Shown here: piece by piece, positions 54,868 to 60,689 of the stretch
How the letters are laid out: every line of letters begins with the position of its first letter
Position numbering within the stretch: position 1 is the stretch's first letter
Source of the DNA: Mariprofundus sp.
Lineage (GTDB): Bacteria > Pseudomonadota > Zetaproteobacteria > Mariprofundales > Mariprofundaceae
Direction: 5' to 3'
Assembly: GCA_021772775.1 (NCBI GenBank)
Contig: JAJFLH010000010.1
Location: 1 to 64,000, forward strand
DNA length: 64,000 nucleotides
The notes under the pieces: model-generated
What the model was told of the DNA's origin: nothing
Seen by the model: the letters and a program-made list of their open reading frames with translations, nothing else
The model's database searches: none
Made by a program: the position numbers and the translations under genes

Positions 54868-57534
54868 ATGACTGATAGTATGAGCAATAGTTTTAACGCC
54901 AAGCAAAGCCTTCAGGTCGGCGACAAGGTCTACACATATTACCAGCTGGATGCCGCAGGAGATGTATCTCGTCTTCCTTACGCGATGAAAGTGTTGTTGG
55001 AAAACCAACTTCGCCGTGAAGATGGTGTGAATGTCACCGCCGACGACATCAAGGCGCTGGCTAACTGGGATGAGAAAGCTGAGCCCAATCATGAGATCGC
55101 TTATATGCCTGCACGTGTATTGATGCAGGACTTCACAGGGGTGCCTGCTGTTGTTGATCTGGCTGCAATGCGTGATGCGATGGCAGCTCTTGGTGGGGAT
55201 ACCAAAAAGATTGAACCTCTGGCTCCGGCTGAGCTGGTGATCGACCACTCGGTGCAGGTAGACAATTTCGGCAGTGCTGATGCAGCCTCCAAAAATACTG
55301 CGATTGAGTTCCAGCGTAATCGTGAGCGTTATAACTTTCTGAAATGGGGACAGAATGCATTTGAGACATTCAAAGCAGTACCTCCTGGTTGCGGCATTGT
55401 GCATCAGGTAAATCTAGAGTTCCTGGCCCGCACTGTATTCGTTAATGATGGAGGCGTGGCCTATCCGGATACACTGGTTGGTACTGACTCTCACACTACA
55501 ATGATCAATGGCCTTGGCGTATTGGGTTGGGGTGTTGGTGGTATCGAAGCAGAAGCTGCGATGCTGGGTCAGCCTGTTTCAATGCTGGTGCCAAAAGTAG
55601 TTGGTTTCAAACTGACTGGAGAACTGCCTGAGGGCGCAACTGCAACTGATCTGGTTCTGACCATTGTTGAGATGCTGCGCAAACACGGTGTGGTAGGAAA
55701 ATTCGTTGAGTTTCATGGTGAAGGCCTGAACAGCCTGCCGCTGGCAGATCGTGCAACGATTGCCAATATGGCGCCTGAATATGGCGCAACCTGCGGCATC
55801 TTCCCAATTGATGAAGAGACTTTGAACTTCCTGCGCCTCTCTAACCGCTCTGAAGAGAATGTCGCACTGGTTGAAGCTTATGCCAAAGCACAGGGCATGT
55901 TCCGTACAGCAGACAGCGTGGAAGCGATCTACAGCGAAAACGTTGAACTGGACATGTCGACTATCGTGCCATCACTGGCTGGTCACAAACGTCCGCAGGA
56001 CCGTATTGCTTTGACTGAATCCAAAGTGAAATATGCAGAGACTGTAGCCGCTGTAAAAGCAGAAGCAGGTCTTAGCTCCAAAGCAGTAACCACAACCATT
56101 AAAGGTAAGGAAGTGACCATTGATGATGGTGCCGTTGTCATTGCAGCGATCACCTCATGCACCAATACCTCTAACCCATCGGTCATGCTTGGCGCGGGTC
56201 TTGTGGCTCGTAAAGCAGCAGCCCTTGGTCTTAACGCCGCTCCTTGGGTGAAAACATCTCTCGGCCCCGGCTCAAAGGTAGTGACAGAGTATTTGAACAA
56301 AGCAGGCCTTTCCAATGATCTGGATGCGCTTGGTTTTAATACCGTCGGTTATGGTTGCACAACATGTATTGGTAACTCAGGCCCACTTCGTGCTGAAGTA
56401 TCCGCAGCCATTAGCGAAGGTGATCTGGCAGTAACTTCGGTACTATCAGGTAACCGTAACTTTGAAGGCCGTGTTCACGCAGAAGTACGCATGAACTATC
56501 TGGCATCTCCACCTCTGGTTGTGGCTTATGCCATTGCCGGCACGATGAATATTGATCTCTATAACGATGCCATTGGTCAGGACAGCAATGGCAACGATGT
56601 CTTCCTGAAAGATATCTGGCCAACACAGAAAGAAGTTGCTGATGTAGTGGCTTCTTGTGTGACTGCTGAGCAGTTCGAAGCCTCTTATGGCAATGTCTAT
56701 GCAGGTGATGAAAGCTGGCAGAACCTTGAAGCACCAACAGGTGATCGTTTCGACTGGGATGATAACTCTACCTACATCCAGCATCCACCATACTTTGAAG
56801 GCATGACCTTTGATCTTGATCCAATCACCGATATCAAAGGCGCACGTGTTTTGGCGCTGTTAGGTGATTCGGTGACTACAGACCACATCTCCCCAGCTGG
56901 TGCGATCAAGGCTGACTCTCCAGCGGGTCGTTATCTGAAAGAGAACGGAGTTGAAGCCAAAGACTTCAACTCCTACGGCTCCCGTCGTGGTAATCACCAG
57001 ATCATGATGCGCGGCACTTTCGCAAACATCCGCCTGCGTAACCTTCTGGCTCCAGGTACTGAAGGTGGTGTAACTATTCACCAGCCATCGGGTCTGCAGA
57101 TGAGCATCTATGATGCAGCCATGAAATACAAAGACGAGAGCGTCGCCAGCATTATTCTGGCAGGTAAAGAGTATGGTTCCGGTTCATCGCGAGACTGGGC
57201 AGCCAAAGGTCCAAGACTACAGGGGGTTCAGGCAGTCATTGCTGAAACCTATGAGCGTATCCATCGCTCCAACCTTGTTGGCATGGGTATTCTGCCACTG
57301 CAGTTCAAAGCAGGGGAATCTGCCGAAACACTGGGTCTGACAGGTCAGGAGTCTTACGACTTCGCAGGTGTCAACGAAGGTGCTGCTAAAGAGTTGGCTG
57401 TAACAGCAACGGCATCTGATGGTTCTGTGAAATCTTTCACCGTTGATGTTCGCATCGATACGCCTAAGGAAGTGGAGTACTACCAGCACGGTGGTATTTT
57501 GCATTATGTCCTGCGTCAGTTGGCGTCAGAGTAA
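54868..57534 (+). CDS. acnA: Aconitate hydratase A
   Basis: An 888-residue enzyme converting citrate to isocitrate. The [4Fe-4S] ligands are Cys431 ([11 protein letters not shown]) and Cys497 and Cys500 ([13 protein letters not shown]). The C-terminal swivel domain with [16 protein letters not shown] is complete. Length matches the AcnA/IRP type. An iron-sulfur enzyme of this kind depends on iron supply, which is not limiting for an iron oxidiser. It is a single-gene unit followed by repeats. Confidence 0.98.
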
Positions 57535-57791: not shown

Positions 57792-58280
57792 ATGAAAATA
57801 TCTTTGATTTGGGCGATGGACAGGAATCGCCTGATTGGTTGCGATAACGCTTTACCATGGAAGCTGCCTGCTGACATGGCATGGTTTAAGAGGAATACCA
57901 TGGCTAAACCCATTTTGATGGGGCGCAAAACCTATGAATCCATCGGACGACCACTGCCCGGTCGTGTAAACCTTATATTAAGCCGCCAGACTGATTTGAA
58001 GATTGATGGCTGTATCGTTGTGCATTCGCTTGCAGAAGCTCAAGCGGCCGTGCTCGATGCAGGTGAAATCATGGTGATGGGGGGGGCTGAAATCTATGCT
58101 CTATCATTAGATCAGGCTGATCGTCTGTATATTACACAAATCGATGCTGAATTCGAAGGTGATGCCTGGTTCCCTGAATTTGATCGTAGCGACTGGCAAG
58201 AAGCCTCACGCCAAAGCGGTGTGGTGGATGAGAAGAGTGTATATCCCCATGAGTTTATCATCCTAGAACGAAAAAACTGA
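57792..58280 (+). CDS. folA: Dihydrofolate reductase
   Basis: I start at ATG 57792, with GGTGAGG upstream; a GTG four codons earlier lacks a better site. The 162-residue enzyme reduces dihydrofolate to tetrahydrofolate. Blocks AMDRNRLIGCDNALPWKLPAD, LMGRKTYESIGRPLPGR and EIMVMGGAEIYAL are the substrate and NADPH sites. It is the last gene before cyc2 and is apparently unrelated to it. Confidence 0.96.
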   Translation: MKISLIWAMDRNRLIGCDNALPWKLPADMAWFKRNTMAKPILMGRKTYESIGRPLPGRVNLILSRQTDLKIDGCIVVHSLAEAQAAVLDAGEIMVMGGAEIYALSLDQADRLYITQIDAEFEGDAWFPEFDRSDWQEASRQSGVVDEKSVYPHEFIILERKN

Positions 58281-58300: not shown

Positions 58301-58319
58301 GTGTGTTAAAAAGACACAC
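58301..58319 (+). terminator. Hairpin after folA
   Basis: GTGTGT (58301-58306) pairs with ACACAC (58314-58319) around a seven-base loop, 20 bases after the folA stop. It lacks a T tract, so it is a weak candidate transcript end separating folA from cyc2. Confidence 0.4.
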
Positions 58320-58342
58320 GTCTAAGTGTGGCGCATTGACCC

Positions 58343-58358
58343 AGTGATGTGGATCACA
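58343..58358. promoter_or_regulatory. CRP/FNR-type palindrome upstream of cyc2
   Basis: AGTGATGTGGATCACA fits the TGTGA-N6-TCACA pattern of CRP-family regulators with one mismatch, centred about 130 bases before the cyc2 start. A TTGACC hexamer at 58336-58341 overlaps its edge, and no convincing -10 box is visible 17 bases later. A second perfect small inverted repeat, GACTC/GAGTC, lies near 58437-58449. Role in redox or carbon control of cyc2 is inference. Confidence 0.4.
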
Positions 58359-58480
58359 TTAGTGTTCAGCCATCCCGTCTGGATAACGAGTGAGTTTCTT
58401 TGAACTTACTGGTGATGACAGAGAGGTATTTGCACTGACTCTACGGAGTCAAATTTATTGATTAATAGGAATCTAACAAC

Positions 58481-59734
58481 ATGAAAAAAATCATTTTTTC
58501 TGCTGCTGCTTTCGCTGTTGTAGCTGTATCTACTGCTGTAGTTGCACCAACCACTTCTGAAGCTGTTCCAGCATTCGCACGTCAGACTGGCGCTGCTTGT
58601 GCTTCTTGCCATTTCCAGGCATTCCCAACTTTGACATCTTTCGGTGCTGCATTTAAACATGGCGCATTCACTGATGTTGGTGAGCAGGCTCTAACTGAAG
58701 ATGACGGTCTGTCTATCACTTCAGTATTGAATATGTCTATCAACAGCCGTATCCGTTTCATCAAAGAGCAGACTACAACTGTAACTGGTGGCGTTAATGC
58801 ATCTGCAACTCTGAATATGTTACAGATGCCTGATGAGACTCCAGTCTTCATCGGTGGTCGTATCGGCACAAACACTGGTGCATTCTTTGAATACACTGGT
58901 GGCGTTGCTGGTGGTTGGCAGTTGTTCAACAGCTTCGATGCTGGTGACTACAAAGTTGGTCTGAACATGTTTAACGGTGGTTTCGGTTGGACTTGGGGTC
59001 TGGAAACATCTAACGTCTACTCTCAGCATGGTGGTATGCATCAGGGTAAAAACATCGCTGCTGAAGAGCAGGTAATGGCTGCTGCTAACGGCAACCAAGG
59101 TGTAACTGCATATATTGCTAATGATTTGATCGCTGCTTCAGTTGTATTGACTACTGATGGTGGTAACGGTCTTAATGGTGCTAACGCACTGACTACTCTT
59201 ATCCCTGGTTTGCGTGTTTGGTTCACTCCTGAAGTTGCTGGCTGGAACTTGGGTATGGGTGTTGGTGTAATTAAAGGTAGTAAAGCTGTAGCTGCTACTG
59301 GTACTGGCGCTGCGACCACAACTGTTCAAGCAAACAACACATTTGTCGATTTCCAGGCAATGGGTGAAGTTGGCGACATGAGTGTTGGTATCTTTGCTGA
59401 TTATGCAACTGCTAAAGCAACAGCTGCAGTTGGCTTGATTAGCTTGAATAGTCTAACTGCTGGTCAGAAATATGATGGTTATTCAGTACGTACATCTATT
59501 GAGCCTGTACATGGCGTAATCATGTCACTGGGTTATGGTAGCCAGACTATTGCTGTTGCAGCATCTCCTGATCAGAACACTACTTGGGTAACTACTGGTA
59601 TCAGCTACTCTATCTACCAGAACTTTGAAGTTGCACTGACTCATCAGATTCAGAGCATCAACAACAACGGTAACGTTGCTGGCGATACTTCTAAAGTCAA
59701 AACAACTATGTTGCAGGTTGAAGCTGTAATGTAA
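58481..59734 (+). CDS. cyc2: Cyc2-type outer-membrane iron oxidase (cytochrome-porin fusion)
   Basis: A 417-residue secreted protein with signal peptide (about residues 1-28), the block AVPAFARQTGAACASCHFQA carrying a single heme-c motif at residues 40-44, then the conserved FPTLTSFGAAFKHGAF and a beta-strand-rich region of about 350 residues ending at the C terminus, consistent with an outer-membrane barrel. This order, including the ARQTG-CxxCHF-P-L-FG-FK signature, is that of Cyc2, which oxidises Fe(II) at the cell surface in neutrophilic iron oxidisers. Codon use is strongly biased to GCT/GTT/ACT, as in the ribosomal genes here, suggesting high expression. It has its own promoter region and a strong terminator. 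Confidence 0.9.
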   Translation: MKKIIFSAAAFAVVAVSTAVVAPTTSEAVPAFARQTGAACASCHFQAFPTLTSFGAAFKHGAFTDVGEQALTEDDGLSITSVLNMSINSRIRFIKEQTTTVTGGVNASATLNMLQMPDETPVFIGGRIGTNTGAFFEYTGGVAGGWQLFNSFDAGDYKVGLNMFNGGFGWTWGLETSNVYSQHGGMHQGKNIAAEEQVMAAANGNQGVTAYIANDLIAASVVLTTDGGNGLNGANALTTLIPGLRVWFTPEVAGWNLGMGVGVIKGSKAVAATGTGAATTTVQANNTFVDFQAMGEVGDMSVGIFADYATAKATAAVGLISLNSLTAGQKYDGYSVRTSIEPVHGVIMSLGYGSQTIAVAASPDQNTTWVTTGISYSIYQNFEVALTHQIQSINNNGNVAGDTSKVKTTMLQVEAVM

Positions 59735-59738
59735 AATC

Positions 59739-59787
59739 AAATCCTTCGGGATTTATGGAAAGGGGCTCTTCGGAGCCCCTTTTTTTT
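59739..59787 (+). terminator. Two tandem UUCG hairpins ending cyc2, the second a strong terminator
   Basis: AAATCC-TTCG-GGATTT (59739-59754) begins five bases after the cyc2 stop. Eight bases later GGGGCTC-TTCG-GAGCCCC (59762-59779) leads into eight T residues. Both have the very stable UUCG tetraloop. The second is a textbook intrinsic terminator; the first may protect the 3' end of an abundant mRNA. Confidence 0.93.
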
Positions 59788-59987: not shown

Positions 59988-60689
59988 ATGAAAAAATCAA
60001 TAGCTCTAATTCTCTCTCTTGCTGCACTTTCACTGACTTCCTGTGGTGGTGCTATGCCACAAATGTTTTGGGATGATGGTGATGAAAAATCCCCTCGCAG
60101 TAGCAGCGTCATAGAGAAAGGTGCTGAAAAACGTGCCCCATTGGATATTCCTCCCGACTTACGGGCTGAAATGGAACTGCCCGCCGCAAATGAGGTGGCA
60201 ACACATGCAGACAATAAGCTGTTGCCTAAAGCTTATGCTAAGGCTGTAGCAGGTAAGCATGTCTCGTTGGATGCGCGTGTTTATCCAGCTACAGCAGACA
60301 AGGTGTTCTCTGCCGTTGTTGATGCAATGACATCGCTAAACTTTCCAGTGAGCTCAGTAGACTCGCGCAGTGGTATCATTACAACAGATTGGGTTCGTAA
60401 GGGTTCAAACTCTTCGAGTGTCGCTACAGTTTTAGGTGGCATTGTAGGGGTAGGCGGAAGCAATATGGTACAGCACCGTTATGTTGTACGCGTATTTCGT
60501 ATGAAGAGTGGTGAAAAGGTGTCGACTAAGCTAGAGATTCGTGTGTTATTGCAAGAGTTTATTGCAAAACATTGGGTAAACAAACCACCGAAGCGTAAGG
60601 TTACATTAGAGTTGTTTAGTTCAATTGAGGAGCAGTTAACGCGGATGCAAGCGAATGCTCCACTGGCGGAAGAGCAGCAATTACATTGA
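59988..60689 (+). CDS. bamC: BamC-like outer-membrane lipoprotein
   Basis: A 233-residue lipoprotein with lipobox LTSC (Cys19). An unstructured N-terminal stretch contains PLDIPPDLRAEMELPAA, the typical BamC motif that contacts BamD, followed by a helix-grip-like domain with VDSRSGIITTDWV. BamC assists the BAM complex in outer-membrane protein folding. Its place just after cyc2, itself an outer-membrane barrel, is suggestive, but the two are separated by a terminator. Similarity is to the general BamC pattern, so the assignment is moderate. Confidence 0.75.
   Translation: MKKSIALILSLAALSLTSCGGAMPQMFWDDGDEKSPRSSSVIEKGAEKRAPLDIPPDLRAEMELPAANEVATHADNKLLPKAYAKAVAGKHVSLDARVYPATADKVFSAVVDAMTSLNFPVSSVDSRSGIITTDWVRKGSNSSSVATVLGGIVGVGGSNMVQHRYVVRVFRMKSGEKVSTKLEIRVLLQEFIAKHWVNKPPKRKVTLELFSSIEEQLTRMQANAPLAEEQQLH

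Follow-up and report, generated by a model that had tools for sequence, protein, structure and literature searches.

A cyc2 locus of Mariprofundus with an order-wide upstream control region, a 5'UTR hairpin and apparent barrel exchange

The window considered here, that is, the entire analysed stretch of 64,000 nucleotides from Mariprofundus sp., contains a gene for a monoheme cytochrome fused to a porin-like domain, preceded by a set of putative control elements and followed by an intrinsic terminator (Table 1). Proteins of this kind, known as Cyc2, reside in the outer membrane and are believed to accept electrons from iron in solution, and their gene serves as the foremost marker of neutrophilic iron oxidation. 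The open reading frame starts with ATG and has AGGA ahead of it.

Table 1. Features of the cyc2 locus and its surroundings (positions refer to the window)
Feature	Position	Strand	Remarks
acnA	54868-57534		Ahead of folA; name by sequence reading
folA, dihydrofolate reductase-like	57792..58280	+	Upstream neighbour; name by sequence reading; shared with G014
Putative operator site 1, TGTGTTAAAAAGACACA	58302..58318		Consensus TGTGTCA-N3-TGACACA; centre about 62 bp before inferred transcription start
Putative operator site 2, TGTGGCGCATTGACCCA	58327..58343		25 bp from site 1; overlaps -35 box
-35 box TTGACC	58336..58341	+	TGAC at fixed distance from site 1 in 49/55 leaders
Crp/Fnr-type palindrome, GTGATGTGGATCAC	58344..58357		Within promoter spacer
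Inferred -10 box TAGTGT	58360..58365	+	Weak; family pattern YANNGT
5'UTR hairpin UGACUC-UACG-GAGUCA, then AAT	58436..58451	+	30 nt before ATG
Ribosome-binding site AGGA	58467..58470	+
cyc2	58481..59734	+	417 aa, stop codon included in the coordinates; monoheme c-type cytochrome fused to porin-like domain
Signal peptide, MKKIIFSAAAFAVVAVSTAVVAPTTSEA	58481..58564	+	Cleavage site judged by eye
Cytochrome (heme plug) domain, aa 29-66	58565..58678	+	Motif definition PMC8406198
CASCH heme site, aa 40-44	58598-58612	+
PTL, aa 49-51	58625-58633	+
Porin-like domain, aa 77-417	58709..59731	+	Fast-changing; 14 alternating-hydrophobicity peaks
Intrinsic terminator	59757..59784	+	12-pair stem, UUCG loop, then T run
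BamC/NlpB-like lipoprotein gene	59988..60689	+	Downstream neighbour; name by sequence reading
trpC, trpD, trpG	past lipoprotein gene	opposite strand	Conserved cyc2 neighbourhood

According to the published criteria, a Cyc2 protein is recognised by the motif AXPXFAR[QK][TY], a CXXCH heme site, a PXL motif four residues further on, and a length of at least 365 aa (PMC8406198). The window protein begins with MKKIIFSAAAFAVVAVSTAVVAPTTSEA, followed by VPAFARQTGAACASCHFQAFPTL; judged by eye, this is MKK and a hydrophobic stretch ending in SEA-VP. AVPAFARQT occupies aa 28-36, three residues ahead of CASCH (five are given in PMC8406198), and the core of this motif is invariant across 23 orthologues. 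CASCH is the single CXXCH of the protein, there being no further cysteine or heme site, and in the spacing CASCH-FQAF-PTL the PXL motif follows at the expected four residues. The length of 417 aa includes a variable domain of ~340 residues. The preliminary description, which put the gene at 58481-59734 and recognised Cyc2 in the N-terminal signature and the single heme ahead of a barrel-sized domain, is borne out as to the identification: the open reading frame of 417 aa has exactly these coordinates on the forward strand, all of the published sequence features are present, and synteny shows the gene to be orthologous to the order's cyc2 (see below). Searches of Pfam, NCBIfam and PDB sequences gave no match, these libraries apparently having no Cyc2 model. 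Past aa 76, hydrophobicity alternates above the level of shuffled sequences (z 3.1, 14 peaks); AlphaFold2 returned a mean pLDDT of 30 for the single protein and of 27 with a two-sequence alignment, values at which both models were discarded, and OMP_b-brl gave a weak match in one of 23 relatives. Cyc2 is expected to have a 16-strand barrel behind its cytochrome domain; for the window protein, it is thus the alternation of residues that suggests a barrel fold.

The gene is present in a single copy in its own genome, as determined by a whole-genome search, and relatives at E<=1e-10 were found in 62 of the 78 genomes of the order. Full-length matches in a phylum-wide sample were confined to the order, the viral contigs searched contained no relative, and a scan of genome contigs yielded a single locus (L002). 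In most genomes with assembled flanks, the gene order cyc2-bamC-trpC-trpD-trpG is kept, with gshA upstream; judged from this conserved neighbourhood, the window gene is the vertical cyc2 locus of the group. Motif set, orthology and synteny together place it firmly in the Cyc2 family. The same genome carries ccoN, which encodes a subunit of cbb3 oxidase and scores above the curated cut-off, together with two genes for the RuBisCO large subunit, a combination that would be expected in a microaerophilic autotroph. This helps the earlier view of the organism as a probable neutrophilic iron oxidiser, which is a reasonable one.

Several known Cyc2 systems can be compared with this locus. The Cyc2 of M. 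ferrooxydans PV-1 (Cluster 1; AKN78226), a member of the same order, has the plan that is read here in the window protein, with a signal peptide, a single heme, and a cytochrome fused to a porin-like domain, and it oxidises Fe(II) (PMC8406198). Both Cluster 1 and Cluster 3 have been reported in Zetaproteobacteria (PMC7029218). Cluster 1, the neutrophilic one, brings together proteins of Zetaproteobacteria, Gallionellaceae and Chlorobi. The window gene probably belongs there, judging from its being an orthologue of the order's canonical cyc2 in a syntenic position and from its difference from the FARKYG proteins. These zetaproteobacterial FARKYG proteins (AIPVFARKYG...CNSCH), which we infer to be Cluster 3 (PMC7029218), come from the same order and follow the same two-domain plan, being encoded either alone or beside the canonical gene, but they differ in having FARKYG in place of FARQTG, a different barrel and no operator. 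The window protein lacks the FARKYG...CNSCH signature of Cluster 3 and carries FARQTGAACASCH, and the second Cyc2 of the FARKYG type that is present in several relatives was not found in this genome. The Cluster 2 protein of Acidithiobacillus ferrooxidans shares both the two-domain plan and the iron-oxidising role proposed for the window protein. That organism is an acidophile with its cyc2 located within the rus operon, whereas the window cyc2 stands alone between folA and the lipoprotein gene.

Iron oxidation and a cyc2 gene have been described for M. aestuarium CP-5 and M. ferrinatatus CP-8. In the two congeners taken as these strains, cyc2 is syntenic and agrees with the window gene in its leader elements, signal peptide and heme domain, but the barrels are only 36-37% identical to that of the window, as against 70-85% for the neighbouring trp and gshA genes. 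Averaged over all pairs, identity declines from 81% in the signal peptide to 74% in the cytochrome and 37% in the barrel. Set against G011, a genome with 86% identity in the core genes, the window sequence matches at 71% of nucleotides in the leader, 92% in codons 1-33 and 78% in codons 34-66, after which the value drops to 49-62%. How similar two barrels are shows no correlation with how similar the core genes are (Spearman 0.11, p 0.19): pairs with 81-86% core identity have barrels anywhere from 23 to 70% identical. In a tree of 48 orthologues, the genus (g1) requires at least six label changes forced by well-supported branches, its members being nested with other genera (G010 with g5, G013 with G094, and G001 and G015 with g3 and g9), and the window Cyc2 forms a lone branch of 0.82 changes per column. 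Since barrel identity does not follow the core genes and the genus is scattered, whereas the leader, signal peptide and plug are conserved, replacement of the barrel by recombination seems to be the simplest reading of these sequences.

A different explanation is that there was no exchange and that selection, being either relaxed or diversifying, has merely let the barrel change very rapidly, with the result that identity saturates and the tree becomes unreliable. Outer-membrane barrels in general do change fast, many barrel pairs are near 35-45% identity, and the bamC-like neighbour likewise diverges quickly; nevertheless, the wide spread of barrel identities at nearly constant core identity, the forced label changes with nesting among other genera, and the abrupt fall of identity at aa ~66 make this explanation unlikely, albeit one to be taken seriously. 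The thought that strain differences cause assemblies to break inside cyc2 was set aside, the count of such breaks (11, one of them doubtful, versus 5.7 expected; P roughly 0.03) being too weak.

The codon usage and the terminator indicate how strongly the gene may be expressed. Scored against the four ribosomal protein genes with which the window opens (each ribosomal gene itself being scored leave-one-out), cyc2 has a codon adaptation index of 0.841, the highest among the window genes of at least 120 aa, compared to 0.775 for rplL, 0.715 for rpoB, 0.688 for rplA and 0.686 for rplK. GCT accounts for 35 of 55 alanine codons, GTT for 19 of 38 valine codons and ACT for 34 of 45 threonine codons, and GGA, GGG, GCC, GTG and ACG are never used. 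In published metatranscriptomes, the most abundant transcript of Mariprofundaceae is frequently a Cluster 1 cyc2; cyc2 levels become up to 3.6-fold higher after addition of Fe(II), and the regulation of the gene is said still to need testing (PMC7029218). The narrow GCT/GTT/ACT usage and the strong terminator that had been noticed at the outset were both recovered, and the proposal of a major protein fits the codon bias along with the published metatranscriptomes (PMC7029218); the regulatory region of its own that had been attributed to the gene is present as well and is more elaborate than first described.

The alignment of 57 leaders, 55 of them long enough for scoring, reveals a block ahead of cyc2 that is conserved throughout the order. 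The best match to the site 1 palindrome averages 12.05 of 14 positions in the 55 leaders, versus 8.6 +/- 0.8 in shuffled ones; a site 2 copy follows 24-25 bp further on in about 30 of the 55, including all those of the genus. TGAC, contained both in site 2 and in the -35 box, keeps a distance of 34 or 35 bases to the beginning of site 1 in 49 of the 55 leaders (chance, 0.8%). When the 64-kb window is scanned, site 1 is the best match (12/14, with two departures from the consensus), and site 2 is one of three places that score 11/14. With at most one mismatch, the palindrome occurs 13 times in 23 congeneric genomes, eight times ahead of cyc2 and five times in coding or unrelated sequence. The operator is absent from the FARKYG-type (Cluster-3-like) cyc2 genes and from one nitrosomonadal cyc2. 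A palindrome of another type, GTGAN6TCAC, is found in all 15 leaders of the genus, always 8 bp past the start of TTGAC (chance, 0.45% per leader), with fixed arms and a variable middle, and has the sequence form of a site for the Crp/Fnr family. No regulator gene adjoining cyc2 was seen in eight relatives, and no bacterial regulator matching TGTGTCA/TGACACA was recognised in the literature searched. A sigma-70 promoter scan did not report the cyc2 promoter; readings of the leader as a sigma-54 promoter or a Fur box were rejected by eye. A wider regulon was likewise dismissed: imperfect sites in G000 numbered six, versus four in a reversed control, and the congeneric sites elsewhere than at cyc2 were the coding or unrelated ones mentioned above.

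Between the promoter and the start codon, a stem of at least six pairs at an AAAT-type anchor, ~25-30 nt before ATG, is found in 69% of 54 leaders, compared to 10% of shuffled ones. In the 16 leaders with a 6-pair, 4-base-loop hairpin, 96 of 96 cells are paired and four of the six pairs are altered on both sides in a compensatory manner, although this alignment was chosen for the 6-pair form and therefore flatters the pair counts, whereas the 69% figure made use of all leaders. None of 500 shuffles reached this level of pairing, and no slid register came near it. A search of the leader with Rfam gave nothing near threshold, so that the hairpin does not belong to a known family. The order-wide control region is apparently undescribed, and neither the hairpin nor the apparent barrel exchange was found described in the literature searched, which comprised open-licence papers only.

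These elements can be combined in a tentative regulatory model. Expression would be set by a promoter specific to cyc2; a regulator would bind TGTGTCA-N3-TGACACA at about -62, a position which, relative to the inferred start, would be that of a class I activator, and also the site 2 copy that extends into the -35 box; within the genus, a regulator of the Crp/Fnr family would act at GTGAN6TCAC, where a protein bound between -35 and -10 would more likely repress; and the message would be protected or exposed by the stable hairpin that lies in the 5'UTR close to the ribosome-binding site. Taken as a whole, with operators, Crp/Fnr regulator and hairpin, this model appears to us about evenly poised between right and wrong; in it, the regulators and whether they activate or repress, the transcription start and the role of the hairpin are inferred. 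Alternatively, no dedicated regulator might be involved, the conserved upstream elements amounting to nothing more than a strong, constitutively active promoter and a hairpin that stabilises the message, as would suit the codon bias and the high expression under all conditions studied (PMC7029218). Such a constitutive arrangement seems rather improbable, given that two similar palindromes at a fixed 24-25 bp look like sites for a dimeric protein, that GTGAN6TCAC, with its invariant arms and variable middle, again resembles such a site and not a core promoter, and that cyc2 does respond to the addition of Fe(II).

As for the function, the gene would encode a Cyc2 of the Cluster-1 type, from a Mariprofundus-like zetaproteobacterium, made in very large amounts; the protein would be exported, its N-terminal heme domain would plug the periplasmic mouth of an outer-membrane barrel, and electrons would be taken singly from dissolved Fe(II) and passed to periplasmic carriers. 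We put the probability that the protein is a Cyc2 iron oxidase at about 0.85; it is an unremarkable addition to a known family and probably a neutrophilic iron oxidase. That this cytochrome-porin has some other natural donor (e.g. a different metal, a solid surface or some small redox-active compound) is very improbable: just three Cyc2 proteins have been assayed and homologues exist in organisms not known to oxidise iron (PMC8406198), and the window barrel forms a lineage by itself, with no more than ~35% identity to its relatives, but the gene is a single copy with the most strongly biased codons in the window, it is the syntenic orthologue of cyc2 from iron-oxidising isolates, and autotrophy and cbb3 oxidase genes are found in the same genome.

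With the protein itself belonging to a known family, the added interest lies in the control region, the hairpin and the apparent barrel exchange. An operator found order-wide and almost only before cyc2, together with a covarying hairpin, defines precisely which bases could be mutated or could serve to capture the regulator, and opens the question of how cyc2 is switched on to direct testing. If barrels are indeed exchanged behind an unchanging plug, this would account for the disagreement between Cyc2 trees and species trees, and it cautions against relying on the barrel when cyc2 transcripts or reads are attributed to species. A more far-reaching possibility, with the odds somewhat against it, is that the locus is a cassette in which the control region, signal peptide and plug stay constant, a tandem operator is served by a dedicated regulator, and the barrel has been repeatedly swapped between lineages, perhaps to escape phages or to suit the local iron chemistry, with the iron-oxidising part kept constant.

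Several minor observations were made on related loci. Small stand-alone secreted monoheme cytochromes of ~90 aa, with a Cyc2-like heme domain (e.g. PSFSRQINADCRTCHFQSMHALNKFGRDFK) and no barrel, are encoded in several genomes of the order: L065 at ~5635 (-), L066 at ~5382 (-), L067 at ~6204 (+), L068 at ~6032 (-), L069 at ~5166 (+) and L070 at ~3564 (+). They are possibly periplasmic partners of Cyc2 or relics; a search of the window's own genome did not find one. In five congeners (G003, with 3.0 Mb in 4 contigs, G005, G007, G017 and G022; loci L054, L058, L059 and L071), Cyc2 of the FARKYG type was found and canonical cyc2 was not, and these may oxidise iron differently. Tandem cyc2 copies occur in L106 (G066:C314), where the two have equal scores and are ~1 kb apart, and in L117 (G097:C23), where the second is cut by the contig end. 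The cyc2 of a nitrosomonadal MAG (L002:604-1952) has a frameshift near codon 50, just past the heme site, which is either an assembly error or a real pseudogene. Finally, where the window has acnA and folA, several congeners have large TPR genes beside cyc2 (L035 9324-12940, L044 9733-13327, L050 3866-7378 and L051 5677-7374), one of which includes a sulfotransferase-like part.
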